Positions 6,849-19,377 of a DNA stretch of 64,000 nt are shown piece by piece (the first letter of the stretch is position 1; each line of letters starts with the position of its first letter). Under the pieces are notes generated by a model, which was not told the origin of the DNA, searched no databases, and was given only the letters and a program-made list of their open reading frames with translations. The stretch spans positions 1,364,001 to 1,428,000 of the forward strand of contig NZ_CP165783.1 of NCBI RefSeq assembly GCF_000513895.2, given 5' to 3'. A program made the translations under genes and the position numbers. This DNA comes from Ensifer sp. WSM1721 (GTDB taxonomy: Bacteria; Pseudomonadota; Alphaproteobacteria; Rhizobiales; Rhizobiaceae).

Positions 6849-8771
6849 ATGTATCGCCCGAAGCTCGCCCAGGTCATCATCGTTATCCTCATGCTGGCGG
6901 TGCTCTCCACCGCAGCGCTGATCCATCTCATCTGGCAGCGCGCAGCCGGCGAGAACATCGAGGAAATCGTCGCGAGTCTCGATGCCCAGACGGCGGGATC
7001 CGTCAGGAACGACCTGTCCCGGACGCTGGCGCTCGTGACGAGCACCGCCGAGGTTGTCCGCTCCATCTTCTTCCAGGGTGCAATCGGCGCCGATGACGAG
7101 GTCAAGCGCGAGTTCCTGTTCCTGTCGCTGCTGCGCGAGCAGCCGGCGATCGCCTGGATCGGCTTCGGCTTTCCGGACGGGCGCTTTTTCGGGTCGCATG
7201 CGACCGCCGACGGCCGGATCGAAATGGTCGAAATCGGCGCTGCGAAAGCCGGCGAGCTCCGTCCGCTGCGGCGCGATCTCTACCGGCCGATCCCGGGCGA
7301 CATCTTTTTCGAGGAGCGCATCAAGGCGGAGAGCGCCTATGTGGCACTCGGCGCCCCCTGGTATCGCTTGGGCAAGGAAACCGGAGAGCCCGTCTGGACG
7401 GTCACCAATGTGCTGCCGAACGGTTTCGAGCCGGCCATGGTGCTGTCGAAGCGCGTCGTGACCTTCGGGAAGTTTACCGGCGTGGTGATGGTGGCCGTGA
7501 GCCTCCGGCGCCTTTCCGAGGCGCTGCAAGCGCTCGAACTACCGGCGCTCGGCAAAGCCTTCGTTCTTGACGAGCGCGCGCGGGTGCTTGCGACATCACA
7601 ACCCTCCGACGGCGTGATGGCGGTACATTTTTCCGATTTTCCTGCCTCCGATGCCGTGGCGACGGCCGCCGCCGAGGCCATCGCGGCCAATAAGGTCGAC
7701 GCCTTCCGCGCCGTAGTGCCGAACGCTTCGCTAGGCCCCGTCTTCGTGTCGTCGTCGCGCCTGCCGTTCGAGAACTGGCGCCTTGTTACCGCCACCCCGC
7801 GCTCGACCTTCGCAAGCGGTATCGACAAGAATATCCGGCGCATAGCCATAGTCGTGCTCGCCATGGCCGCGCTTGCCGCAGCAACTGCCGTCGGCTTTGC
7901 AAATTTTCTCCTCGCCCGGCCGCTCGCCCGGCTGGCGGAGCAATTGCGTGCGGTCGAGCGCTTCTCGCTGGAAAGCATCCGCCATCACCCGACCTTTCTC
8001 GCCGAGCTCAACGACTTGTCCCAGGCGTTGAAGCGAATGGCGGTCGGGCTTTCGGCCTTCGCCCGCTATATGCCGCTCGACGTCGTGCGACCGCTGGTCG
8101 AGGGTGGCATCGAGCCGAAGCCCGGCGGCGAGCTCTGCGAAGTGACGGTCATGTTCGCCGACCTGCCCGGCTTCACCGAGCTGACGGAGAGGCTCGGACC
8201 CGGCGTCGAGCCGCATCTGACGCGCTTCCTGTCTATCGCGGTCGCCGCTATCCATGCCGAGGGAGGCACCGTCGACAAGTTCATCGGGGATGCCGTCATG
8301 GCGATCTGGAATGCGCCGGGCAAACAGGCGGACCATGCTTCCCGCGCCTGCCGCGCGGCTGTCGCGATCCGGACGGCAATGCATGACGACCCGCCAATCG
8401 CTGCCGGCGAGGATGCGATCCGCGTGCGCATCGGGATCAACAGCGGCACGGCGCTGATCGGCAATATCGGCTCCGCCGAGAGGCTGAGCTACACCGCCAT
8501 CGGCGATACCGTCAATCTCGCGAGCCGGCTGGTGAATGTGGCCAAGGAGCGCGGCGTCGAAATCGTGCTCAGCGATGCAACGATGCGGGAACTCGGGGCA
8601 GAGCCGATGACGAGGCCGCTCGGGCTTGCGGCGGTCCGCGGCAAGGCCAGCCCTGTCGGCGTGCATACGATTGACCAGCTAAACGCTCGATCCGCGGGAG
8701 GAAGCGATGGAAATGGCGATTACGACGGTGGCGATGCTCGCTTGCATGCAGCTCAAGCACTTCGTCGCTGA
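6849..8771 (+). CDS. membrane-bound class III adenylate/guanylate cyclase with sensor domain
   Basis: A 640-residue protein: an N-terminal membrane segment (10-30), a periplasmic Cache-like sensor (about 40-320), a second membrane segment (about 325-355), a linker, and a class III cyclase domain (about 430-610). Catalytic features are intact: the metal-binding Asp in MFADLPGFT, the second in KFIGDAVMAIW, and GDTVNLASRL with the transition-state Asn and Arg. Cyclic-nucleotide signalling from an extracytoplasmic ligand is the likely role. It starts 2 bases after ndh and its 3' end overlaps the next gene by 65 bases, tying it to the same operon. The ligand is unknown. Confidence 0.88.
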   Translation: MYRPKLAQVIIVILMLAVLSTAALIHLIWQRAAGENIEEIVASLDAQTAGSVRNDLSRTLALVTSTAEVVRSIFFQGAIGADDEVKREFLFLSLLREQPAIAWIGFGFPDGRFFGSHATADGRIEMVEIGAAKAGELRPLRRDLYRPIPGDIFFEERIKAESAYVALGAPWYRLGKETGEPVWTVTNVLPNGFEPAMVLSKRVVTFGKFTGVVMVAVSLRRLSEALQALELPALGKAFVLDERARVLATSQPSDGVMAVHFSDFPASDAVATAAAEAIAANKVDAFRAVVPNASLGPVFVSSSRLPFENWRLVTATPRSTFASGIDKNIRRIAIVVLAMAALAAATAVGFANFLLARPLARLAEQLRAVERFSLESIRHHPTFLAELNDLSQALKRMAVGLSAFARYMPLDVVRPLVEGGIEPKPGGELCEVTVMFADLPGFTELTERLGPGVEPHLTRFLSIAVAAIHAEGGTVDKFIGDAVMAIWNAPGKQADHASRACRAAVAIRTAMHDDPPIAAGEDAIRVRIGINSGTALIGNIGSAERLSYTAIGDTVNLASRLVNVAKERGVEIVLSDATMRELGAEPMTRPLGLAAVRGKASPVGVHTIDQLNARSAGGSDGNGDYDGGDARLHAAQALRR

Positions 8772-9084
8772 TTATGTGCTGCAGCCCGCCTGGATCCTGC
8801 GCGGCAAAGGAAATTTCCGCATGATCGGCGGCTATGTCCATGCGGGCGGGCACGCGCTCGGAACCCTGCCGGCACTGATGCTCGCCGGCGCTGGCATGAC
8901 GCGCGTCGCCATTCTCGTGCTCGCCGAATTCGTAGCTCACTATCTCATCGACTATGGCAAGGCACTGCTGTCGCGGCATAGCCGCGCCGATACGACGGCC
9001 CGGACCTACTGGGCGATGCACGGAGCCGATCAATTGATGCACCAGCTCACCTATGCGGCGCTGATCCTGGCCGCACTGGTGTAG
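8707..9084 (+). CDS. DUF3307-family membrane protein
   Basis: A 125-residue small membrane protein with the DUF3307 pattern: KHFVADYVLQP near the start, HAGGHALGT in the middle, AHYLIDYGK and DQLMHQLTYA near the end, spaced by hydrophobic helices. The repeated His/Asp in membrane helices are typical, but the family function is unknown. The ATG has GGGAGGAAGC upstream and lies inside the end of the cyclase gene. It is the last gene of the run that begins with the bufferin peptide. Confidence 0.8.
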   Translation: MEMAITTVAMLACMQLKHFVADYVLQPAWILRGKGNFRMIGGYVHAGGHALGTLPALMLAGAGMTRVAILVLAEFVAHYLIDYGKALLSRHSRADTTARTYWAMHGADQLMHQLTYAALILAALV

Positions 9085-9278
9085 GCCCTTTCAACGGACG
9101 ACAACACTGCACGACGTAGCGGATGCGTGTCTCCACCGGCGTCGGGCCTGCTGTCGCTGGAGCCTTTAAGCTCGCGGTGGAGGTTGAGCATCTTTAATAT
9201 TTCCATGATATTTGCTGAGCTTTGATAGTATCATGCCGGAAAACAGCGGAACGCTGTTAGGAGTTGTGCGGCTGTCCG

Positions 9279-12200
9279 ATGGCTACCGGGGGAACACAAG
9301 CACAAGTTGGTGCACTTTCGGGAGAGCGCAGGCAGGTGACCGCGCTCTTCTACGACGTTGTTGGCTCAACAGCCTTGTTGCAACAACTCGATCCCGAAGT
9401 CTTCGGTGTCATATTGAGGACTCTCCACAATGAGGCGACCGCCCTCATCAGCAGCTATGGCGGTCACCTTGAGCGGGCTCAAGGGGATGGCGGCTGTGCC
9501 TACTTTGGGGTCCCGGAGGCGAGGGAGGACGCCGCCGAATGTGCGGTTGCTGCGGCGATTGAGATGGTCGAGCGTTGCCAGCGGCTGGCACAACAGTTCG
9601 GAGTGAGTCTGAAGGTCAGAGTTGGCGTCGCCACCAGCCTTGTCGTAATTGCCGACGGCTCGACAGCAGATTTTCCCAGCTACACAGAAGTCATCGGAAT
9701 CGCGCCGGCGCTCGCTGCCCGCATTCAGTCCGAAGCCGCACCGAATACCGTTGCGGTGGCGGAAGCCACCTATCGGCTGACCACCGGAGCGTTCGAATTT
9801 GAGGAGATCGGGCTTCGGGAGCTCAAGGGCTTCGGCGAACCAGTTCGCTTGTGGCGGCCAGTGGCCCGCCGGCCACAATCCGATCGCTTCACGGCTTACC
9901 GGCGTGTGTCGACGCCCTTCGTCGGCCGCGACGACGAGCTTGAGCTTTGCCGAAGGCGCTGGGCCCGTGCCACAAACGGCAACGGCCAGCTCATTTTTTT
10001 GCATGGCGACGCAGGGATGGGGAAATCGCGGCTGGTTGCGGAGTTCCGTCGTGATCTCGCAGGGAGAGGCGTGGACTGCCTTGTGTTTCAATGCCAGCCC
10101 CGCGGCAATACTGAACCGCTGCATCCGTTTTTGCGGCCGATCAGGCAGGCCGCCGCGGAGGCAATCGAAGAGTCCGAGCCGGATCGGGATGCCATCATTC
10201 GCTTTCTGCGGTCGCTAGGCTCCGAAGTTAGCGAGCTGCACGCCGAGATCGTCGCGTTCCTGCTGGTCGACAAGCCGCAGGAACTGTCAAGCGAAGCCTG
10301 GCAAGTCGATCTCTCGGACCAGGAAATCCGGAAGCGCGCTGTCGAGGCCACGCTGGCGGTTCTGACATCGTACTCCGCAACAAGACCCGTCCTCATCGTG
10401 ATCGAGGACGTGCATTGGGCTGACACGCTCACAAAAGCTCTTATCGCAGGGCTGGCCGAATGGATCGAGTCGAGACCGGTTCTTGCCATTGCAACGTCGC
10501 GTTTGGCCACCGACTCTGATTGTCTGGGTGATCCGAACGTGCTCGACATTGCGTTGCCGCGCCTTACAGATCAAGCGACCCGGCAGCTGGTCGACCGAAT
10601 TTGGGAGACGACGCCTCCGGATGGGCTCGCTGCCTTTGTCTACGAGAAGAGCGACGGTGTCCCGCTCTTCGCCGAACAGCTCGCGCTGCTGCTGAAGGAA
10701 CGCGCCGGGCCAGACGTTCGGGATCAGGCCGGGTGGGAAACACTGCTTCGCGAGGGCCGCATTCTCAATCTGCAGGACCTTATCGCGGCCCGCCTTGCTG
10801 GCCTGGGACGGCTGAGGCGCGTGGCGCAGATCGCAAGTGTCCTCGGGCGGGAGTTCCGACTGAAGCTCCTGGTCGCCGTATTGGAGCCTGAGCCTCTTCC
10901 TGTTCCCCTAGAAGAAGCGATCGAGACGCTCGCCCAGGCCGGGATCGTGCGTCGAACTTCCGCGGGCGCGGCGATCCGATTTCGTCACGTCCTCATCCAG
11001 GAGGCGGCCTACGACAGCCTTCTGAAGTCCGAGCGGCGGGAAATACATGGACGCATTGTCCGCCTTGTACAGTCGGGCTCAGTTTCGCCTCTGCCCGATG
11101 AGGCGATGGCATGGCATTGCGAGCAGGCCGGTGAGCCGTTAGCGGCAGCGCGCCACGCAATTCAGGCGGCGGAGGCGTGCGGCGCTCGCTCTGCCCTGCA
11201 CGAGGCCGACCGCCTGTTGGATTTCGCCGAGAAGCAGCTCGCGGGAGTTGGAGAAGGTGGCGAGGCGAACGATCTGCTGCTTCGCCTGCTCGCGGTGCGC
11301 GGACCGGTTGCTGCCGCGCTCCACGGGAGGGGAGGGGCGCGAGCGCGCTCGATCTATGAACAGGGAGTGTGGCTTTGCGCGGAACGCAAGGATCAGGACC
11401 GCGCGAAATGGTTTCCGCTCTATTGGGGCTGGTGGTTCACTGCCCCGGACTTCGCGACGCAGCGAGTGCGGTCGGACATCCTTTTGCGCGATCTTGAGGG
11501 CTCGGCCGATCCGGAGGTCCGGCTCCAGTCACTCCATTGCGCATGGGCCACGAACGAAGATGCCGGACTGCACGCACACTGTTTGCAGTGCGTCAACGAG
11601 GGTTTGAAGCTCTATGACGAGGACCGAGCCCGATTTAGCCGCGGTCGCTACGGTGGCCATGATGCGAAGGTCTGCGCACTGGGCGAACGAGCCTTCTCTC
11701 TCTGGTTCATGGGCGACAACGCCGGATCGTCGGAAAGCATCGACGCGGCGAAGCATTGGGCTGAGCACATCGATCATCTCCCCAGCGTCCTTCATGCGCT
11801 GGAGTTCGAGATCGAGCTGCAACGATATCGCAATGACCATGCGGGCGTTATCGCCGTTGCTGACAGGATCGCCGAGCTCGCGCAGGACGTGCCGGGCGTG
11901 CTTGCAAAGGCGGCGCTTTTTCGGGCTTGGGCGCACGGCGTGAGCGGGGATGCGGCCACCGGCCTGGCAGAATTCGAAGCCAGGCTGGCACGCCAGCGCG
12001 AGATCGCCACGTATGAAGGCATGCCCATCTATGCCGGCATGCGCGCAGAGCTGTTCGAACGTGCGGGACGCAACGACGAAGCCCTGTCAATCCTCGACGG
12101 CGCAATCGCGGCCTCGACCGGGAGTGGGCAGGTTTTCTGGCTAGCGGAGTTGCTTCGCCAGCGGGCTCTCCTTCGGCATGCACGCCACGAACCGGAGGAA

Positions 12201-12326
12201 GCTGTTGCGTCGGACCTTCACCGCGCGCTCGAAGTCGCCACCGAACAACAAGCCTCGATGCTTGCTTCGCGTGTGCGCCTGGATCTGGAGCGGCTCGGGC
12301 TTCGCGCTCAGACCGGGGATGCATGA
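9279..12326 (+). CDS. cyclase-like domain / AAA ATPase / TPR regulator, cyclase site degenerate
   Basis: A 1015-residue protein: class III cyclase-homology domain (15-195), AAA_16-type ATPase (about 212-480; Walker A GDAGMGKS at 243-250, Walker B LIVIEDVHWAD), then an all-helical TPR-like C-terminal half. The cyclase domain keeps both metal Asp (26 and 70) and Arg148, but the usual Asn of the APNLAAR motif is Ala144 (APALAAR). It may therefore be a weak or inactive cyclase serving as a sensor. ATG 9279 is chosen over an in-frame TTG at 9264 because TAGGAG lies directly against that TTG. Its stop overlaps the YcaO gene start (ATGA), so it is translated with the peptide-modifying enzymes. It has no DNA-binding domain that I can see. 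Confidence 0.85.
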   Translation: MATGGTQAQVGALSGERRQVTALFYDVVGSTALLQQLDPEVFGVILRTLHNEATALISSYGGHLERAQGDGGCAYFGVPEAREDAAECAVAAAIEMVERCQRLAQQFGVSLKVRVGVATSLVVIADGSTADFPSYTEVIGIAPALAARIQSEAAPNTVAVAEATYRLTTGAFEFEEIGLRELKGFGEPVRLWRPVARRPQSDRFTAYRRVSTPFVGRDDELELCRRRWARATNGNGQLIFLHGDAGMGKSRLVAEFRRDLAGRGVDCLVFQCQPRGNTEPLHPFLRPIRQAAAEAIEESEPDRDAIIRFLRSLGSEVSELHAEIVAFLLVDKPQELSSEAWQVDLSDQEIRKRAVEATLAVLTSYSATRPVLIVIEDVHWADTLTKALIAGLAEWIESRPVLAIATSRLATDSDCLGDPNVLDIALPRLTDQATRQLVDRIWETTPPDGLAAFVYEKSDGVPLFAEQLALLLKERAGPDVRDQAGWETLLREGRILNLQDLIAARLAGLGRLRRVAQIASVLGREFRLKLLVAVLEPEPLPVPLEEAIETLAQAGIVRRTSAGAAIRFRHVLIQEAAYDSLLKSERREIHGRIVRLVQSGSVSPLPDEAMAWHCEQAGEPLAAARHAIQAAEACGARSALHEADRLLDFAEKQLAGVGEGGEANDLLLRLLAVRGPVAAALHGRGGARARSIYEQGVWLCAERKDQDRAKWFPLYWGWWFTAPDFATQRVRSDILLRDLEGSADPEVRLQSLHCAWATNEDAGLHAHCLQCVNEGLKLYDEDRARFSRGRYGGHDAKVCALGERAFSLWFMGDNAGSSESIDAAKHWAEHIDHLPSVLHALEFEIELQRYRNDHAGVIAVADRIAELAQDVPGVLAKAALFRAWAHGVSGDAATGLAEFEARLARQREIATYEGMPIYAGMRAELFERAGRNDEALSILDGAIAASTGSGQVFWLAELLRQRALLRHARHEPEEAVASDLHRALEVATEQQASMLASRVRLDLERLGLRAQTGDA

Positions 12327-13537
12327 ACGAAACGCACGCGGCAACGGCGGCTGAACTGGGCGCACAGCTCGAGCGAGAACTATCCACCTGCCGCGATTTC
12401 CGGGGCAGGAAGCCTGAAGCCACCGAAGAGCTCGTCCGCGCGCTCTTCTCCCAAAGGAGTCGCTTTGGCATAACGCGCGTTGGATCGTTGACCCGGCTTG
12501 ATCGCGCTGGAGTAGCGGTCGTCCAGGTGGTACGGCCGCTGTCGCTGTCCAACGCGGTATCCCAAGGCAAGGGCGTCAATATCATGGAGGCGGCGGCATC
12601 GGGCCTTATGGAAAGCCTGGAATGCTGGGCGGCGGAGCGGATTGCGCCTGAGCGGATCAAGGTCGCGAGCGCGCGCGAACTGGGGGATGAGATACGCGAT
12701 CTCTATGCTGGTTGTCGCGTGCACGGTTTCGATGCAGGGTGGGATCAACTGCGGCTTGGCTGGACGGACGGCTACGACCTCTTCACCGGGCGCGTGCGGC
12801 CGGTTCCCGTCGCGATGGTCGATACGATCTACACGCTTCCTTCGCCGCACCCCATTGCGTTTCCGCGATCGACACGGGGCCTCGCCGCGGGCCCGACAAT
12901 GCTTGCTGCGATCATCCATGCAGCACTTGAAATCTTGGAACGGGCGAGCGTCGCCGGGGCGGAGCGATATCCGCGTTCCTATCCGGAGCTTCGGATCGAT
13001 CCGGCCCGCGTCGCCGGACCTCTCTCGTCCGGCATGTTGGCCCGCCTCGAGGCTGCGGATCTTGCTGCGGGTATCTGGCTGGTTCCGGGCGATCACGATA
13101 TGCCCGTCTTTCGCTGCCAGGTCATGGAGACGCAGCGCCATCAGGAAATCGCACCGATGCCGGGCGAGGGATTCGCCTGCGATTTTACCTATGACCGCGC
13201 TCTGGCAAGAGCCCTCATGGAGGCAGCACAGGCGCGGGTCACCGCGCTCGCCGGGGCCCGCGAGGACATTACCCGCGCTGTCTACCCTGAGCGCTACGAC
13301 CGCGAGCACCTTGATGCGTGCCGGCAAGCGTTCCTGTCGCCGAGCGGGACGACCGCGCTTCCTGCCGACCGCGACGAACCCGCCTCCGCGACCACCGCGC
13401 TGACAGCCTTGCTCGGCGCGATCAAGGCCGCAGGTGGGCAGGCGGCCCTGGTCGTGCCCCTCTACAGCAGCAAGGACCTCGACCTGAACGTCGTCCGCCT
13501 TGTCGTCCCGCCGCTCAGGGACCTCGTCAGGGAGTAG
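12323..13537 (+). CDS. YcaO-family peptide-backbone-modifying enzyme
   Basis: A 404-residue YcaO ATPase. The ATP/Mg-binding signature is present: SQGKG at 80-84 followed by EAAASGLMESLECW (acidic residues 97 and 100), and a later AALEILERAS. YcaO enzymes use ATP to activate peptide amide bonds, giving azolines or, with TfuA, thioamides. No separate E1-like/ThiF domain is fused and the C-terminus lacks the PxPxP end of azoline cyclodehydratases. A TfuA gene follows 4 bases downstream, favouring the thioamide class. The substrate peptide is not recognised. Confidence 0.88.
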   Translation: MNETHAATAAELGAQLERELSTCRDFRGRKPEATEELVRALFSQRSRFGITRVGSLTRLDRAGVAVVQVVRPLSLSNAVSQGKGVNIMEAAASGLMESLECWAAERIAPERIKVASARELGDEIRDLYAGCRVHGFDAGWDQLRLGWTDGYDLFTGRVRPVPVAMVDTIYTLPSPHPIAFPRSTRGLAAGPTMLAAIIHAALEILERASVAGAERYPRSYPELRIDPARVAGPLSSGMLARLEAADLAAGIWLVPGDHDMPVFRCQVMETQRHQEIAPMPGEGFACDFTYDRALARALMEAAQARVTALAGAREDITRAVYPERYDREHLDACRQAFLSPSGTTALPADRDEPASATTALTALLGAIKAAGGQAALVVPLYSSKDLDLNVVRLVVPPLRDLVRE

Positions 13538-13541
13538 CGCA

Positions 13542-14327
13542 ATGGTGAGCGAACTGGTCGTCTTCCTCGGTCCGACACTATCGCGCGCCGAGGCTGCCGG
13601 AATTCTCGACGCAACTTACCTGCCGCCGGCCGAGCAAGGATCGGTCGTGCGTGCGGTGCGGGAATATTTGCCTCGGGCGCTCGTCCTAATCGATGGCTCG
13701 TTCGGACGGGTGCCGGCGGTGCGTCACAAGGAGGTCCTCTGGGCGCTTGCGAAAGGCATCCCGGTATTCGGGGCGGCAAGCATGGGCGCGCTCCGGGCGG
13801 CTGAACTCTCCGCTTTCGGCATGCAGGGCTACGGCTTCATCTATCGGTGGTACTCGATGACGCCCCTCGCTGACGACGATGAGGTTGCGGTCGCGATGAG
13901 TCCCCCTGAGCTCGGCACTGCTCCACTGAGCGAAGCACTTATCAATATCCGCCTCACTCTACGCCGCGCAATGCACGCTGGCATCGTAACTGCCGACGAG
14001 CGGAGCAAGCTCGAAACGTTGGCGCGCGACACGCACTTCGTCGAACGCAGCTATCCCCGCCTACTCGCCGATGCGCGGTCTACCTTTTCCGAAGCATCGG
14101 CAGTCGCTCTGGATCGCCTGGCGGACTGGCTGCCGTCGGGGGCACTCGACCGCAAGCGTGAGGACGCGATCGGACTGTTGACGAAACTGGCCCGCGGCTC
14201 GGGATTTGTTGGAAGACCTCTGAACGCTCCGCCCTTCCGCCTGACCGAGGCATGGGCATACGATCTCGACGCGGCAGGGCTTTGGAGCGATGATATCAAA
14301 TTAATTCTTTCGGATGAGGGAAGTTGA
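13542..14327 (+). CDS. tfuA: TfuA-like protein, YcaO partner
   Basis: A 261-residue TfuA-domain protein. The hallmark is HKEVLWALAKGIPVFGAASMGALRAAEL (about 62-90), and the chain opens with a Rossmann-like strand LVVFLGPTLS. TfuA was first named in the trifolitoxin cluster of Rhizobium and is thought to help YcaO deliver sulfur to peptide thioamides, as in McrA thioglycine and thiovarsolin biosynthesis. It lies in an operon with the YcaO gene. Family call is firm; whether the product is a secreted peptide or a modified cellular protein cannot be told. Confidence 0.88.
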   Translation: MVSELVVFLGPTLSRAEAAGILDATYLPPAEQGSVVRAVREYLPRALVLIDGSFGRVPAVRHKEVLWALAKGIPVFGAASMGALRAAELSAFGMQGYGFIYRWYSMTPLADDDEVAVAMSPPELGTAPLSEALINIRLTLRRAMHAGIVTADERSKLETLARDTHFVERSYPRLLADARSTFSEASAVALDRLADWLPSGALDRKREDAIGLLTKLARGSGFVGRPLNAPPFRLTEAWAYDLDAAGLWSDDIKLILSDEGS

Positions 14328-14405
14328 CTTAAGAAAGACCTCGCGTCATCTTCCTCAACTTGGGGAAGACTTTACACCATCCTAAAAACGAGGGGAGCCG
14401 CCTGG

Positions 14406-15602
14406 ATGGATGCGTCCGGACAATGGCCGTCAGAGTTGAATTCGACGGCTTCGCGTCTTGGAACCCGCTTTCTCGTTTTCCCGCAGCCTCCGTTCATTCC
14501 GGGCTATGAGCGGCCGGAGACGATCTGGGTTTCCACGCCTCCAAACCGAATCGGCCCCGGGCCGGCCGACAGCCGAATGTATGTGATCGACCCGATGGTC
14601 GATAAACAACCCTATCAGTTTCCCTATCTGCCCCCCTACGCCGGCGCGTTGAAGCCGCGCACGGTGGCGGGTCCGGACGGTCACTTCGACCACATCCAAA
14701 TCGGTACGCCGGAATTCGAGGCGGCGCATGTCTACGCCTGCGTCCGCCGCACGCTCGACATTTGCGAGAGTTATCTAGGGCGGGATATCCCCTGGTTCTT
14801 TGAATCGACTCACGGCCGTCTCGAAATTGTGCCGCGGCTGCGCTGGGACAACGCGCAGTCAGGCTACGGTTTTCTGGAGATGGGGGAGGACGAGTCGCGG
14901 GGCGAGCCGCACCCCTTCGCGCTCAACTTCGATGCTGTCGCGCATGAGGTTGGGCACCTGATCATCTTCGGCGTGATGGGCGCGCCCCAGTTTGACCCGC
15001 CGCATGAATACTTCGCCTACCATGAAGCGGCCGCTGATTTCATCGCGCTCATCGGCCTTTTACACTTTGACACGGCGCTCGACCTGCTTCTGCGCCGGAC
15101 GCGCGGCAATCTCCTGATCACCAACGAACTCGACCGCTTCGGAGAGCTTTGCGACGAAAAGCAGGTGCGCCTGTTCAGCCATTCGCTGAGGATGAGGGAC
15201 GTCTGCGCCGAGGTGCACGACCTCTCCAAACCCTTCGCAGGCGCGCTGTTCGACGTCCTGGTGGAGATCTACCAAGTCCTGCTTTTCGAGCGCGGGCTTT
15301 CCGATCTCGATCCGCGCGACTTCCGCGACCTCAGGAACGAGCTTTCGGACGAGGAAATGGAGGAACTGTTTTCCGCCTCGCTCGGCGTCAATGACGACCG
15401 GGTGTTCGCCTTGAAATCGGCGCTGGAAGAGGCGCGCGATTTCGTCGGCGAAATCCTGGTGCGTTCATGGGATGAGCTGGAGCCGCACACGCTCGACTAT
15501 CGCGGAGCGGCGGAGGCAATGATCCACGCCGCCGAAACCGGGCGCGCGAACCGCTTTGTCCACAGCATCGCCGACAACTTTGCGTGGCGCGAGATCCTGT
15601 GA
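14406..15602 (+). CDS. gluzincin-type zinc metallopeptidase beside the YcaO/TfuA pair
   Basis: A 398-residue protein with HEVGH at 180-184 and, 23 residues on, YHEAAADF whose Glu207 matches the third zinc ligand of thermolysin-like gluzincins (E-x-x-x-D pattern). There is no signal peptide, so it is probably cytoplasmic. The rest shows no domain I recognise. The ATG at 14406 has GGGGAG about 10 bases upstream; 78 bases separate it from tfuA on the same strand. By position it could trim a leader peptide or process the regulator; both are inference. No close known family is recognised. Confidence 0.75.
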   Translation: MDASGQWPSELNSTASRLGTRFLVFPQPPFIPGYERPETIWVSTPPNRIGPGPADSRMYVIDPMVDKQPYQFPYLPPYAGALKPRTVAGPDGHFDHIQIGTPEFEAAHVYACVRRTLDICESYLGRDIPWFFESTHGRLEIVPRLRWDNAQSGYGFLEMGEDESRGEPHPFALNFDAVAHEVGHLIIFGVMGAPQFDPPHEYFAYHEAAADFIALIGLLHFDTALDLLLRRTRGNLLITNELDRFGELCDEKQVRLFSHSLRMRDVCAEVHDLSKPFAGALFDVLVEIYQVLLFERGLSDLDPRDFRDLRNELSDEEMEELFSASLGVNDDRVFALKSALEEARDFVGEILVRSWDELEPHTLDYRGAAEAMIHAAETGRANRFVHSIADNFAWREIL

Positions 15603-15743
15603 GTAACGGCGCATGGCGAAGGAGAAGACATCGCCAGCGTCAACGGAAGTTCTACGGCCAGGCAATCGGGCTCGCAGGTCCGGTCAGCCGCCGGAAAAAT
15701 CGGGACAGCGTCAACCACGAACCGGTTCAGGGGGAGAATTGAT

Positions 15744-16241
15744 ATGCAGTATGAAACTCATCCAGCGCCGCCGAATCCGCGGACTTATCGGCCGGATCAG
15801 ATCACTCTCTATGGCGTAAGACTTAACGTCGAAAACAACGCTGCATATCTGCCGTTGGACGGAAATAGGCTTAAGCTGGCTGTTGTACCTTTTGGTTCAG
15901 ACGTTGCTGTAGATCCACAGGAGATGGAGATTGCTGTGATCTATGGATATGCGTACGAAGGATACTGCTATCGTTTCGATAAGCCGAAACTCTTTGTGTT
16001 CTCCCCACACACGACCAAAGCGCCCGCGAAAGGATGCGGTTACGAGAACAGTGGATATTTCATGTGGCAGATTACGAAAAAGACCCAGATGATGGAGCTT
16101 TCGACAAGTGCCGACCTGGCTGAGGAGCTCGTCTTGAACGCAAATCTTCCGGGAAATCGTAGCCCTAACACTTACGGCAATAGTATGGCTCTAGCTCATC
16201 GGAGCGGTCGGCTGACTCGCGGTGGTGGAACTCAAGGCTAG
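15744..16241 (+). CDS. hypothetical protein, AT-richer than neighbours
   Basis: A 165-residue protein of no family I recognise. It starts QYETHPAPPNPRTY and has a Tyr-rich middle (YGYAYEGYCYRF), only two cysteines, and a Gly-rich end. It has no signal peptide or membrane helix. The ATG follows GGGGGAGAATTGAT, a strong ribosome site. Base composition is visibly lower in GC than the genes before it. It lies 141 bases after the metallopeptidase on the same strand, so it may belong to the YcaO/TfuA locus as substrate, immunity protein or unrelated cargo. Confidence 0.6.
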   Translation: MQYETHPAPPNPRTYRPDQITLYGVRLNVENNAAYLPLDGNRLKLAVVPFGSDVAVDPQEMEIAVIYGYAYEGYCYRFDKPKLFVFSPHTTKAPAKGCGYENSGYFMWQITKKTQMMELSTSADLAEELVLNANLPGNRSPNTYGNSMALAHRSGRLTRGGGTQG

Positions 16242-16269
16242 CGCTTTATCGCTCCGGGAATTCGCTTCG

Positions 16270-16375
16270 CTACAGCGCCGTGCGTCTTTTCAGACGCACA
16301 ACGGACGCTGTAGCACTTTGAATTGCTGCATCCTTCGTCCTTAAATCGGCTACGATTTAAGGAAACACGCAGTAG
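16270..16375. repeat. RIME1 intergenic repeat, copy 1
   Basis: About 106 bases made of two palindromes: CGTGCGTCTTTTCAGACGCAC within TACAGCGC...GCTGTAG, then TTAAATCG...CGATTTAA flanked by ctgca/gcag. This matches the rhizobial intergenic mosaic element RIME1. It lies in the convergent gap downstream of the 165-residue gene. Confidence 0.88.
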
Positions 16376-16506
16376 AGAAGCAGCAAACGTCATGACGCAA
16401 CGGACTCGTGGAGGTGCAGGTTTCTCAGCCTCTCTCCTTTGGAGGGCTTGCATCGTTGACGAAGCTTGTAGCCGGCGTCGTCCTTTCAAACTTCCTCTTT
16501 GACGTA

Positions 16507-16602
16507 CTATTTTCCCGTTTCCGCTGAGACGGCGACCTCAAAGGCAGGACCGTTAAGCTTTTGAAGCTTAACCTTCGGCTCCCTGCCCTTAACTATATTA
16601 TC
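16507..16602 (-). pseudogene. decayed second copy of the 93-residue gene
   Basis: Minus-strand codons 16602-16507 read DNIVKGREPKVKLQKL, then NGPAFEVAVSAETGK and a stop. This aligns with residues 19-51 of the neighbouring protein (DNLNDAAEPKIKLQRA, then EPPFEVSVSTFDGK). It begins in another frame right at the stop of the intact gene, so it has no start of its own. It is the remnant of a tandem duplicate. Confidence 0.7.
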
Positions 16603-16882
16603 AGCTTGCCTGTGGCGGGAGGTTTGAGTCGTCAATTGGATATAGCTCTTGGTCGCGTACTGTCATTCGAGGATCATGAATATTGTAGTCGGTACCGTTC
16701 CTGCTAACTTCGATTTTTACTTCACCAGTTTTCCCATCGAACGTAGAAACGGAAACCTCAAACGGTGGTTCTCCGGCCTGAGCCCGCTGAAGCTTAATCT
16801 TGGGTTCCGCAGCGTCGTTTAGATTATCTGTGACCTTCAGATATTTGTCCGTACCGGTTGCTGTGAATCTCACGTTCGCCAT
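16601..16882 (-). CDS. hypothetical 93-residue protein
   Basis: A small, charged, cysteine-free protein (starts MANVRFTATGTDKYLKVT, with EPKIKLQ and FEVSVSTFDGKTGEVKIEVS). The alternating hydrophobic pattern suggests a beta-sandwich. No family recognised. GGAGGGAGACAC precedes the ATG, a strong ribosome site. It is AT-richer than its surroundings and is followed by a decayed second copy. It converges on the YcaO/TfuA locus, so membership of that locus is only positional. Confidence 0.65.
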   Translation of the reverse strand: MANVRFTATGTDKYLKVTDNLNDAAEPKIKLQRAQAGEPPFEVSVSTFDGKTGEVKIEVSRNGTDYNIHDPRMTVRDQELYPIDDSNLPPQAS

Positions 16883-17164: not shown

Positions 17165-17779
17165 TCAGCGATAGCTTCTGGCGATCATCGCGAGGACCGT
17201 CTCGAAAAGCTCGTCCTCTGCCTGTCGGGCGGTGATCTCGCCGGTAGCGGCGGCATGGGACAGGGCGTCGGCGGCTCCGAGCATGGCCCAGAAGCCGGCT
17301 TGTGGAACGCCTCGTGGGCCGATGAAAGAGGCCAGCGCCTTTCGGCATTTCTCGAGAAAGATCCGTTGATAATCCCGCTTGACCCCTTCCAGCTCGGGTG
17401 AACCGGCCAGGGCGGCGAGCACGCCGGGTATCTCGCGCCCTTGTGCCAGAACGCATTCGACATAGGCCGCGGCGAGGACCCTTGCAGTCCCTTCCAGTGT
17501 CGGCTCGCGTGCCTCGAGCGCCGCGTCGATGATCGCCGTCTGTCGCGCATCAAAATCCTTGTAGAGCGCGATCAGCAAACCATTGCGCGTGCCGAAATGG
17601 TCATAGACGACCGGCTTGGTGACGTCGGCTTCTTCCGAAAGCCTCGGGAGCGTCAGGGCGTCCGTGCCTTCCTCCCGCACCAGCCGCCACGAGACGTCCA
17701 GGAGCTGGCGGAGCCGCTCCTCGCGGCTGAGGCGAAGGCGCTTCGGCGCATGCCGGTCTTTTTCCGATGTGCTTGACAT
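17165..17779 (-). CDS. TetR-family repressor, probable regulator of the MFS exporter
   Basis: A 204-residue TetR protein from the ATG at 17779 (an in-frame start 19 codons upstream would read through the operator region and is not used). The helix-turn-helix lies at about 20-65 with TLPRLSEEADVTKPVVYDHF, the rest is the ligand-binding helical domain. It is divergent from the MFS gene at 17911. The spacer carries an inverted repeat CTATATAC...GTATATAG. Autoregulation and ligand-relieved repression of the exporter are the usual arrangement. Confidence 0.87.
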   Translation of the reverse strand: MSSTSEKDRHAPKRLRLSREERLRQLLDVSWRLVREEGTDALTLPRLSEEADVTKPVVYDHFGTRNGLLIALYKDFDARQTAIIDAALEAREPTLEGTARVLAAAYVECVLAQGREIPGVLAALAGSPELEGVKRDYQRIFLEKCRKALASFIGPRGVPQAGFWAMLGAADALSHAAATGEITARQAEDELFETVLAMIARSYR

Positions 17780-17781
17780 GT

Positions 17782-17816
17782 CTATATACCAAAAGTAACT
17801 TACCTTAAGTATATAG
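17782..17816. promoter_or_regulatory. inverted repeat, probable TetR operator
   Basis: CTATATAC (17782-17789) and GTATATAG (17809-17816) form 8-base arms 19 bases apart. They sit directly upstream of the TetR start and about 100 bases before the MFS gene. Confidence 0.55.
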
Positions 17817-17910
17817 AAGCCACCCCTTAACCGCAACCACTCCGCCGGGCTCGTTGCCGGCGGCTGAAGCGGCGTGCCTCAGCGCGCCGTAGAAGGAGGA
17901 TCTTTGCCAA

Positions 17911-19377
17911 ATGACCGATGCTTCCCTTTCCCGCCCCGTTGACCAGAAGGCATGGCTGGGCCTCATGGCGGTGCTGCCACTGGTCCTGATCGTGGCCATG
18001 GACGGTTCCATTCTCTATCTTGCGATGCCGCGCGTGACCTCCGCGCTCACACCCACCGCCGACCAGGCTCTCTGGATTCTCGACATCTACGGCTTCGTGG
18101 TCGGATCGCTGCTGATCACCTTCGGCAATATCGGCGATCGTTACGGCCGGCTGAAGCTGATCATGGTAGGTGCCGTCGTCTTCGGCATGGGGTCCCTCGG
18201 CGCTGCCTATGCGCAGGCGCCTGAAACCCTGATCGCGTTCCGCGCCCTGATGGGCCTTGGCGGCGCCACGCTGCTGCCCTCGGGTCTTGCGATCGTCAGC
18301 GCCCTGTTTCCCGATCCCCGGCTGCGCGCGCAAGTCATCGGCATCTTCGCCGCCACTTTTTCAGCCGGCTTCGCAATCGGCCCGGTCGTCGGCGGGCTTC
18401 TGCTCCAGCATTATACGTGGGGGAGCGTGTTTGTGATCAACGTCCCGGTCGTCATCGCCTTCCTGATCGCCGCGCCGATCCTGCTGCGCGAAGTGCGCTC
18501 CACGCATTACGGGCGCATCGATCTCCCGAGCCTGCTGCTGTCCTTCGCGGGCATCCTGTTGTTCACGTGGTCGGTCAAGGCCGCTGCCGCCCATGGCTTC
18601 ACGGTAGCGCAAGCAACCGCCGGGATCGTCGGCATCGTCGTCCTCGCGCTGTTCCTGCAGAGACAGACGCGGATCGAATATCCGCTGCTCGACCTCAGCC
18701 TCTTCCGGGACCGCATCTTCTCCATTGCGATCCTGACCGGCCTTTTGTCGCTGGTCGTCTGGGCCGCCGCTGGATATCTCTCCGGCATCTATCTGCAATC
18801 GGTCCTGGGGTTCGACGTCCTTTCGGCCGCGCTACTGACCCTGCCAGGCGCAATGGTGCTGACGGCGGTCTGCGTGGGCACAGCCCGGATCGTCGAGCGC
18901 ATCGGCCGCAAGCCCGCGCTGGTCGCCACGCATCTTCTCATCAGCGCGGGCGTATTCCTGCTGCTGTTCACAGGCACCGAAGCCGGTATCGGGGTGTTCA
19001 TCGCCTCGAGCATGATTGCCGGCATCGGTTATGGCCTGTCGTTCAGCCTGGTGGCCGAGGTCGCGGTTTCGGCGGTGCCGCCAGAGCGCGCCGGCGCGGC
19101 AGCCTCTATCGCAGAAACCAGCAACGAGCTGGGCAACGCACTGGGGATTTCGTTGCTCGGCTCTCTGGCGGCACTCAGCTTTCGGCTGCTCGGCCCTGAT
19201 GTGGCCGGCACGCTTAACGAAACTCTGGATCAGCCGGCGCTTACCGCCGAGACGGTGCTCCATGCCAAGCAGGCGTTCCTTACGGGCCTGCATGTGGCTG
19301 TCGCTGCCGGCGGCCTGCTTATGCTCGCGGTCGGGATCATCGCGTGGCTCTGGTTGCCGAGGAAACTACCGGAATAA
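17911..19377 (+). CDS. MFS drug exporter, DHA2 (14-helix) type
   Basis: A 488-residue multi-spanning inner-membrane transporter. The motif-A loop GNIGDRYGRLKL follows helix 2, helix 1 has the DHA2-like VAMDGSILYLAMP, and helix 5 carries GPVVGGLLL (motif C). The length and number of hydrophobic segments fit the 14-helix QacA/SmvA group, which exports cationic drugs or dyes using the proton gradient. A ribosome site AAGGAGGAT lies upstream. The divergent TetR gene is the likely controller. The real substrate cannot be read from sequence. Confidence 0.88.
   Translation: MTDASLSRPVDQKAWLGLMAVLPLVLIVAMDGSILYLAMPRVTSALTPTADQALWILDIYGFVVGSLLITFGNIGDRYGRLKLIMVGAVVFGMGSLGAAYAQAPETLIAFRALMGLGGATLLPSGLAIVSALFPDPRLRAQVIGIFAATFSAGFAIGPVVGGLLLQHYTWGSVFVINVPVVIAFLIAAPILLREVRSTHYGRIDLPSLLLSFAGILLFTWSVKAAAAHGFTVAQATAGIVGIVVLALFLQRQTRIEYPLLDLSLFRDRIFSIAILTGLLSLVVWAAAGYLSGIYLQSVLGFDVLSAALLTLPGAMVLTAVCVGTARIVERIGRKPALVATHLLISAGVFLLLFTGTEAGIGVFIASSMIAGIGYGLSFSLVAEVAVSAVPPERAGAAASIAETSNELGNALGISLLGSLAALSFRLLGPDVAGTLNETLDQPALTAETVLHAKQAFLTGLHVAVAAGGLLMLAVGIIAWLWLPRKLPE

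Follow-up and report, generated by a model that had tools for sequence, protein, structure and literature searches.

The thiovarsolins are described as products of a YcaO enzyme and a TfuA protein, which modify the repeats of the precursor VarA at the Pro-Arg bond (PMC6511847). In the same description, the VarA family ranges from a non-repeating form to one with up to five repeats, and the cluster is presented without a specific protease. The Ser-Lys pair of TfuA is reported to free sulfide from ThiS-COSH, for use by YcaO in thioamide formation (PMC13185837). A leader-core peptide encoded with YcaO and TfuA is, as such, an already known kind of system. We consider it probable that the locus described here is a self-contained RiPP-type cassette, in which a 165-aa protein would be the precursor, with a tail modified by YcaO/TfuA and cut by a gluzincin metallopeptidase.

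The cassette was found in a window of 64,000 nucleotides (the whole stretch of DNA that was analysed), carried by a 1.7-Mb contig of the 6.3-Mb genome of Ensifer sp. WSM1721. Among the named loci of the species collection, that of E. aridi (Ensifer aridi) is closest, with YcaO, TfuA and peptidase 98% identical. Genes for a cyclase-ATPase, YcaO, TfuA and an M4-like HEVGH gluzincin follow one another in tandem on a single strand. The ORF coordinates agree with the first-pass annotation that the first three are closely joined: an ATGA overlap links the regulator to YcaO, and 4 bases separate YcaO from TfuA. The features are as follows.

9264..12326 (+): class III nucleotide cyclase and AAA ATPase regulator; alternative ATG at 9279
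12323..13537 (+): YcaO enzyme, from Pfam, NCBIfam and motif alignment
13542..14327 (+): TfuA, presumed sulfur-delivering partner of YcaO, from Pfam and NCBIfam
14406..15602 (+): gluzincin metallopeptidase, M4-like HEVGH...EAAAD, presumed maturation protease, from motif and co-conservation
15744..16145 (+): precursor, N-terminal beta-rich leader domain, residues 1-134, from alignment and AF2
16146..16238 (+): precursor, C-terminal tail, residues 135-165, presumed core, LPGNRSPNTYGNSMALAHRSGRL..., disorder predicted from 138
16601..16882 (-): 93-aa small protein outside the conserved core, its gene retained nearby only in the five closest relatives, window included

Just 3′ of the gene for the 93-aa protein, at 16507-16608 (-), lies an apparent degenerate second copy of its middle part, in a frame that gives EPKVKLQKLNGPAFEVAVSAETGK and then a stop. 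Upstream of the cassette is a second nucleotide cyclase gene (6849-8771, +; Guanylate_cyc and a sub-cut-off dCache match), and downstream are a TetR-type regulator and a divergent MFS efflux-type transporter (17165-19377; Pfam, NCBIfam). Three more YcaO genes occur in the same genome (L060, L061, L062): one is accompanied by TfuA and a SAM-domain cyclase-ATPase regulator, another has no TfuA in its vicinity, and the third again has TfuA. The peptidase and the leader-tail protein were both absent from the 20 kb surrounding each of them.

The window YcaO matched the Pfam YcaO family at 1.6e-49, above the cut-off of the domain model, and the window TfuA matched the TfuA model at 4.6e-43; adjoining YcaO and TfuA genes, by which a YcaO-TfuA thioamidated RiPP locus is recognized, are present. 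The best NCBIfam match of YcaO was the McrA-glycine thioamidation model, below its cut-off. The HKE at residues 62-64 and the SMG at 80-82 of TfuA presumably hold the catalytic Lys and Ser, and both literal motifs were found in 45 of the 57 TfuA proteins examined. In the SxxxExxER motif of YcaO, the Arg is replaced in all aligned peptidase-linked YcaOs and in some other TfuA-linked ones, and is retained in four archaeal YcaOs. Many repeat-type loci (L048, L050, L052-L054, L056-L059, L074) encode a TfuA that is ~180 residues longer at the C-terminus; a Pfam search with this extension from L053 gave no match.

Guanylate_cyc and AAA_16 were the Pfam domains of the regulator, which has a Walker A sequence (GDAGMGKS) and the cyclase Asp motifs. 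It aligned to positions 272-1265 of TIGR03903 (TOMM kinase/cyclase) with 329.8 bits, below the cut-off of 705.75. It thus resembles the C-terminal ~1000 positions of this model, and with the kinase part missing and a sub-cut-off score it does not classify as a TIGR03903 kinase and cyclase fusion. The long form of the regulator was found in 24 of 45 loci with peptidase and precursor. At least 12 of the remaining 21 have a second cyclase type nearby, as judged from ORF start, annotation or a weak match, and Pfam-confirmed in L054 only.

The first-pass annotation had also placed a zinc metallopeptidase 3′ of TfuA. This gene, with HEVGH encoded at 14943-14957, has a product for which no match was found in Pfam, M4 included, or NCBIfam at E 0.001. 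Its motifs contain the HExxH and the third-ligand Glu in ExxxD that define gluzincins, with a HEVGH...EAAAD spacing that we take to be M4-like. An alignment of 28 peptidases, counting that of the window, showed no substitution at H180, E181 and H184 (HExxH), E207 or D211, so the enzyme is probably active. Matches occurred in 26 of 297 genomes of the order, 18 of them strong; the eight weak matches are longer, different proteins. All 18 strong peptidase genomes have YcaO and TfuA adjoining the peptidase, so that this association is more than chance. No peptidase match was found outside the class in the phylum sample (398 genomes). The search of plasmid records returned one match on a Nostoc plasmid. 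The peptidase of R. etli IE4771 (L096, about 7842-8978) is an open frame that is missing from the incomplete gene table of its plasmid.

The ORF that follows the peptidase, at 15744-16241, encodes 165 aa at 51% GC, against 62-66% for the four preceding genes. No precursor had been evident to the first-pass annotation, which proposed as substrate either one of the AT-rich small proteins or a protein encoded elsewhere. The ORF, with its leader and tail and its linkage to the peptidase, corrects the former view and favours the small proteins; a need for a substrate encoded elsewhere is not supported. The protein had 35 database relatives at E 0.001. In an alignment of 22 sequences, YGY-x-x-EG-x-CYR, A-x-GCG and Y-x-MW were invariant, and PG-x-R-x-PNTY and HR were found toward the C-terminus. 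AF2 predicted a beta-rich domain, in which blocks within residues 11-120 reached pLDDT 83-93. Confidence was lower in the part that follows, which contains a short helix at 126-134, and residues 138-165 were unstructured (pLDDT <50). In contrast to many RiPP cores, the tail is conserved above the leader: among the 22 relatives, residues 134-157 form the most conserved 24-residue stretch (0.84, with 0.82 for the best leader stretch). In architecture and linkage, the respects in which the assignment holds, this corresponds to the linked precursor with leader and core that marks a RiPP. At E 0.001 no Pfam or NCBIfam leader model, NHLP/Nif11 included, matched the window precursor, a search that remote homology could escape, and no NCBIfam leader model matched the L053 form. 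Transporter and leader-binding (RRE) models of Pfam and NCBIfam were without a match among the cassette proteins.

A profile made from the 22 sequences identified the same-strand ORF right 3′ of the peptidase in far more distant loci, where the N-terminal domain is conserved and short units in an array make up the tail. The loci compared came from every strong peptidase match in the order and class samples, from 14 stretches in the genus sample and from 5 of 127 plasmid records; those cut by contig ends (L049, L055, L073, L116) were dropped. In all 45 untruncated loci, the peptidase gene is directly followed, in the same orientation, by a member of the precursor family, 149-291 aa long in the loci examined. 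Measured to the first start codon, the gap between the two ranges from -173 to 283 bp, with a median of 33 bp. TfuA is present in 39 of these loci and YcaO in 38, both together in 38; in L076, TfuA is present and YcaO was not found. The first-pass reading of a YcaO/TfuA RiPP-like locus with a co-conserved peptidase and regulator is upheld; a lack of such co-conservation, which it had named as refuting, was looked for in these loci and not observed. The comparison of ORFs near orthologous loci that had been suggested as a check separates the two small proteins: the 165-aa family was kept throughout, and the 93-aa, AT-rich protein in the five closest loci only (window counted).

Where the peptidase was absent, so was the precursor. 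The leader-tail protein was not found, even at E 10, in 11 alphaproteobacterial TfuA loci without peptidase (L060, L062, L079-L087), or in four archaeal TfuA loci, two of them on short contigs. The former represent 11 of 36 such rows, the others being covered by the genome search only. That search used a leader-only profile and was limited to 12 scored candidates for each genome. Of the 297 genomes of the order, 17 gave a match, in every case at the locus of the peptidase; the one remaining strong-peptidase genome of the 18 has a contig that breaks off 380 bases past this gene. As 15 of the 17 matched genomes had supplied rows to the profile, the informative results are the absence elsewhere and the two non-supplying genomes. 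Patristic distances of the YcaO, TfuA, peptidase and precursor trees correlated at 0.87-0.89 across 38 loci, as expected of a jointly inherited unit; shared descent alone would also suffice.

Tail sequences divided the 45 loci into 21 with a single tail of the window type, 23 with repeats, and one (L074) with an Arg-rich tail without repeats. In the peptidase tree, the 21 single-tail loci group together as a clade (support 0.998). Their tail, like that of the window protein, consists of a single conserved segment of the LPG-x-R type, with a variant ending in L099. Outside this clade, 23 of 24 loci have a tandem array of 4-7-residue units in the tail position. Units include VRGAS (×9), VSGAR (×8), VSGSR (×10), GSGANL, SGGKAY, TGRSMM, MASRAV (×10), GMNV, DLVGRS, ARGMS and MGRSGGA. 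Many approach an aliphatic-small-Gly-x-basic pattern; GSGANL and GMNV are exceptions without a basic residue, and MASRAV is one without Gly. For a repeat form (P0157), AF2 was less certain of the leader and predicted the array to be disordered, with mean pLDDT 62. Codon differences within 14 arrays, summed pairwise with copies of more than one mismatched residue omitted and hence biased, were 839 synonymous and 108 non-synonymous. This excess indicates that the array peptide is held constant while the DNA drifts. A repeat-form query returned 1102 database relatives at E 0.001, some of which may match through repeats alone, as the query itself held repeats; each of the 120 matches listed of these 1102 contains, by the script's test, an array with a period of 5 or 10.

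A branch without the modifying enzymes is what weighs most against calling the system a 'thioamide RiPP' in the strict sense. Six loci, those of R. etli CFN 42 (p42c), R. ruizarguesonis (pRlX3) and four genomes of one genus, keep the cyclase, peptidase and repeat protein, with YcaO and TfuA absent from the fetched stretch. In a sample of 99 genomes from one genus of the same family, presumably Rhizobium, 33 peptidase match rows fell in 30 genomes, 25 with TfuA and five without. No YcaO was found anywhere in the genomes of these five; four have intact 7-mer arrays (e.g. MGRSGGA), and the fifth is cut by a contig end. Because such genomes retain the peptidase and intact repeat arrays, the peptidase-precursor pair is separable from the modification. 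It could be argued from the persistence of these repeats that a protease with a dedicated repeat substrate is the real unit, as a peptide-release or surface system, to which YcaO/TfuA are optional and from which they were lost in one lineage. We regard this as unlikely, given that 38 of 45 loci retain both enzymes. In the midpoint-rooted peptidase tree, moreover, the six loci are one clade (support 1.0) within a group of 21 (0.97), and since this clade nests inside a YcaO-bearing group, loss of YcaO/TfuA would be the simpler reading. Loss of one step is also compatible with a modified precursor.

Two further explanations would take the 165-aa protein out of the role of substrate, and we give both very little weight. 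The repeat tail could be a structural pentapeptide-repeat beta-helix, and the protein an ordinary folded accessory. Pentapeptide repeat (PF00805) is the name or type given to some of the database relatives, and units such as ANVRG presumably resemble that motif. However, unit length varies among relatives (4, 5, 6 or 7), the array is predicted to be disordered in a low-confidence model, and the window's clade has no array at all. Equally improbable is that YcaO and TfuA act on a housekeeping protein, their neighbours being unrelated to the substrate. Protein substrates of YcaO enzymes do exist: McrA is a known one, and the McrA-type model is the best NCBIfam match of the window YcaO. Another is ribosomal protein uL16, on which E. 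coli YcaO is reported to act (PMC13063428). Against this explanation, the cassette is patchy, with a strong peptidase in 18 and TfuA in 44 of the 297 genomes of the order, and every untruncated peptidase locus examined has its own leader-tail protein.

The best reading is a new family of repeat-core, YcaO/TfuA-modified RiPPs. The folded leader domain would present the disordered C-terminal tail; YcaO and TfuA would bind the precursor and swap a backbone carbonyl oxygen for sulfur in the tail. As many units approach aliphatic-small-Gly-x-basic, this is the probable site, and modification would be expected in LPGNR and/or HRSGR in the window and once per repeat in many relatives. The gluzincin may then cut the tail, or between repeats, to give short modified peptides, and the cyclase-ATPase may control expression of the cassette. 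More tentatively, and with the balance tipped slightly against it, the loci may represent a large, hitherto undescribed family in which a folded leader carries up to about ten near-identical cores of 4-7 residues, each sulfur-modified by YcaO/TfuA and released by the gluzincin, and in which the pair can lack YcaO/TfuA. If so, the product would be either a very small thioamide peptide in numerous copies or a single poly-thioamide chain.

The precursor family offers a candidate for the missing substrate in one group of YcaO-TfuA cassettes, which occur in rhizobia and, going by the database names of its relatives, in Ruegeria, Roseovarius and Leisingera. The RiPPER study is described as using a precursor window of 20-120 aa in all analyses (PMC6511847), and a later global survey as using RiPPER at standard settings (PMC8120280). 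Of all surveys, these two were the likeliest to have included the family, but proteins of 149-291 aa exceed the 20-120 aa range. The substrate question of these YcaO-TfuA pairs becomes addressable in cultured rhizobia, e.g. R. johnstonii 3841, in which ycaO, tfuA, the peptidase gene and the precursor gene are RL_RS31040, RL_RS31035, RL_RS31030 and RL_RS31025 on pRL11, and the clades with and without YcaO/TfuA provide a natural comparison for the contribution of sulfur.

Several known systems share parts of this arrangement. TOMM kinase/cyclase fusions (TIGR03903) likewise have a cyclase and ATPase regulator adjoining the YcaO gene, but the window regulator has no N-terminal kinase part and scores below the cut-off. 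Archaeal McrA-glycine thioamidation supplies the best-matching curated models for both the window YcaO and TfuA; both fall below the cut-offs, the substrate there is a large enzyme, and the four archaeal loci examined gave no peptidase or leader-tail match. Proteusins (NHLP/Nif11-type) are described as carrying a long, pre-folded leader, after which come a disordered part and the core (PMC10858898), whereas the window leader is predicted to be beta-rich and matched no leader model. With the thiovarsolin (var) system of Streptomyces varsoviensis, the likeness extends to the YcaO and TfuA pair, a precursor family that ranges from a non-repeating form to several repeats, and a basic residue within the unit (APR in var). 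The single-segment tail of the window parallels one var-family member described as without repeats. Here, however, the leader domain is large, the units are of 4-7 residues, and there are a dedicated gluzincin and a cyclase regulator. Likened to VarA by description, the window cassette appears to resemble thiovarsolin logic, with a folded leader and a protease in addition. As far as the literature was searched, four elements are new: the family of precursors, the logic of its repeats, the constant pairing with a gluzincin, and the branch without YcaO.
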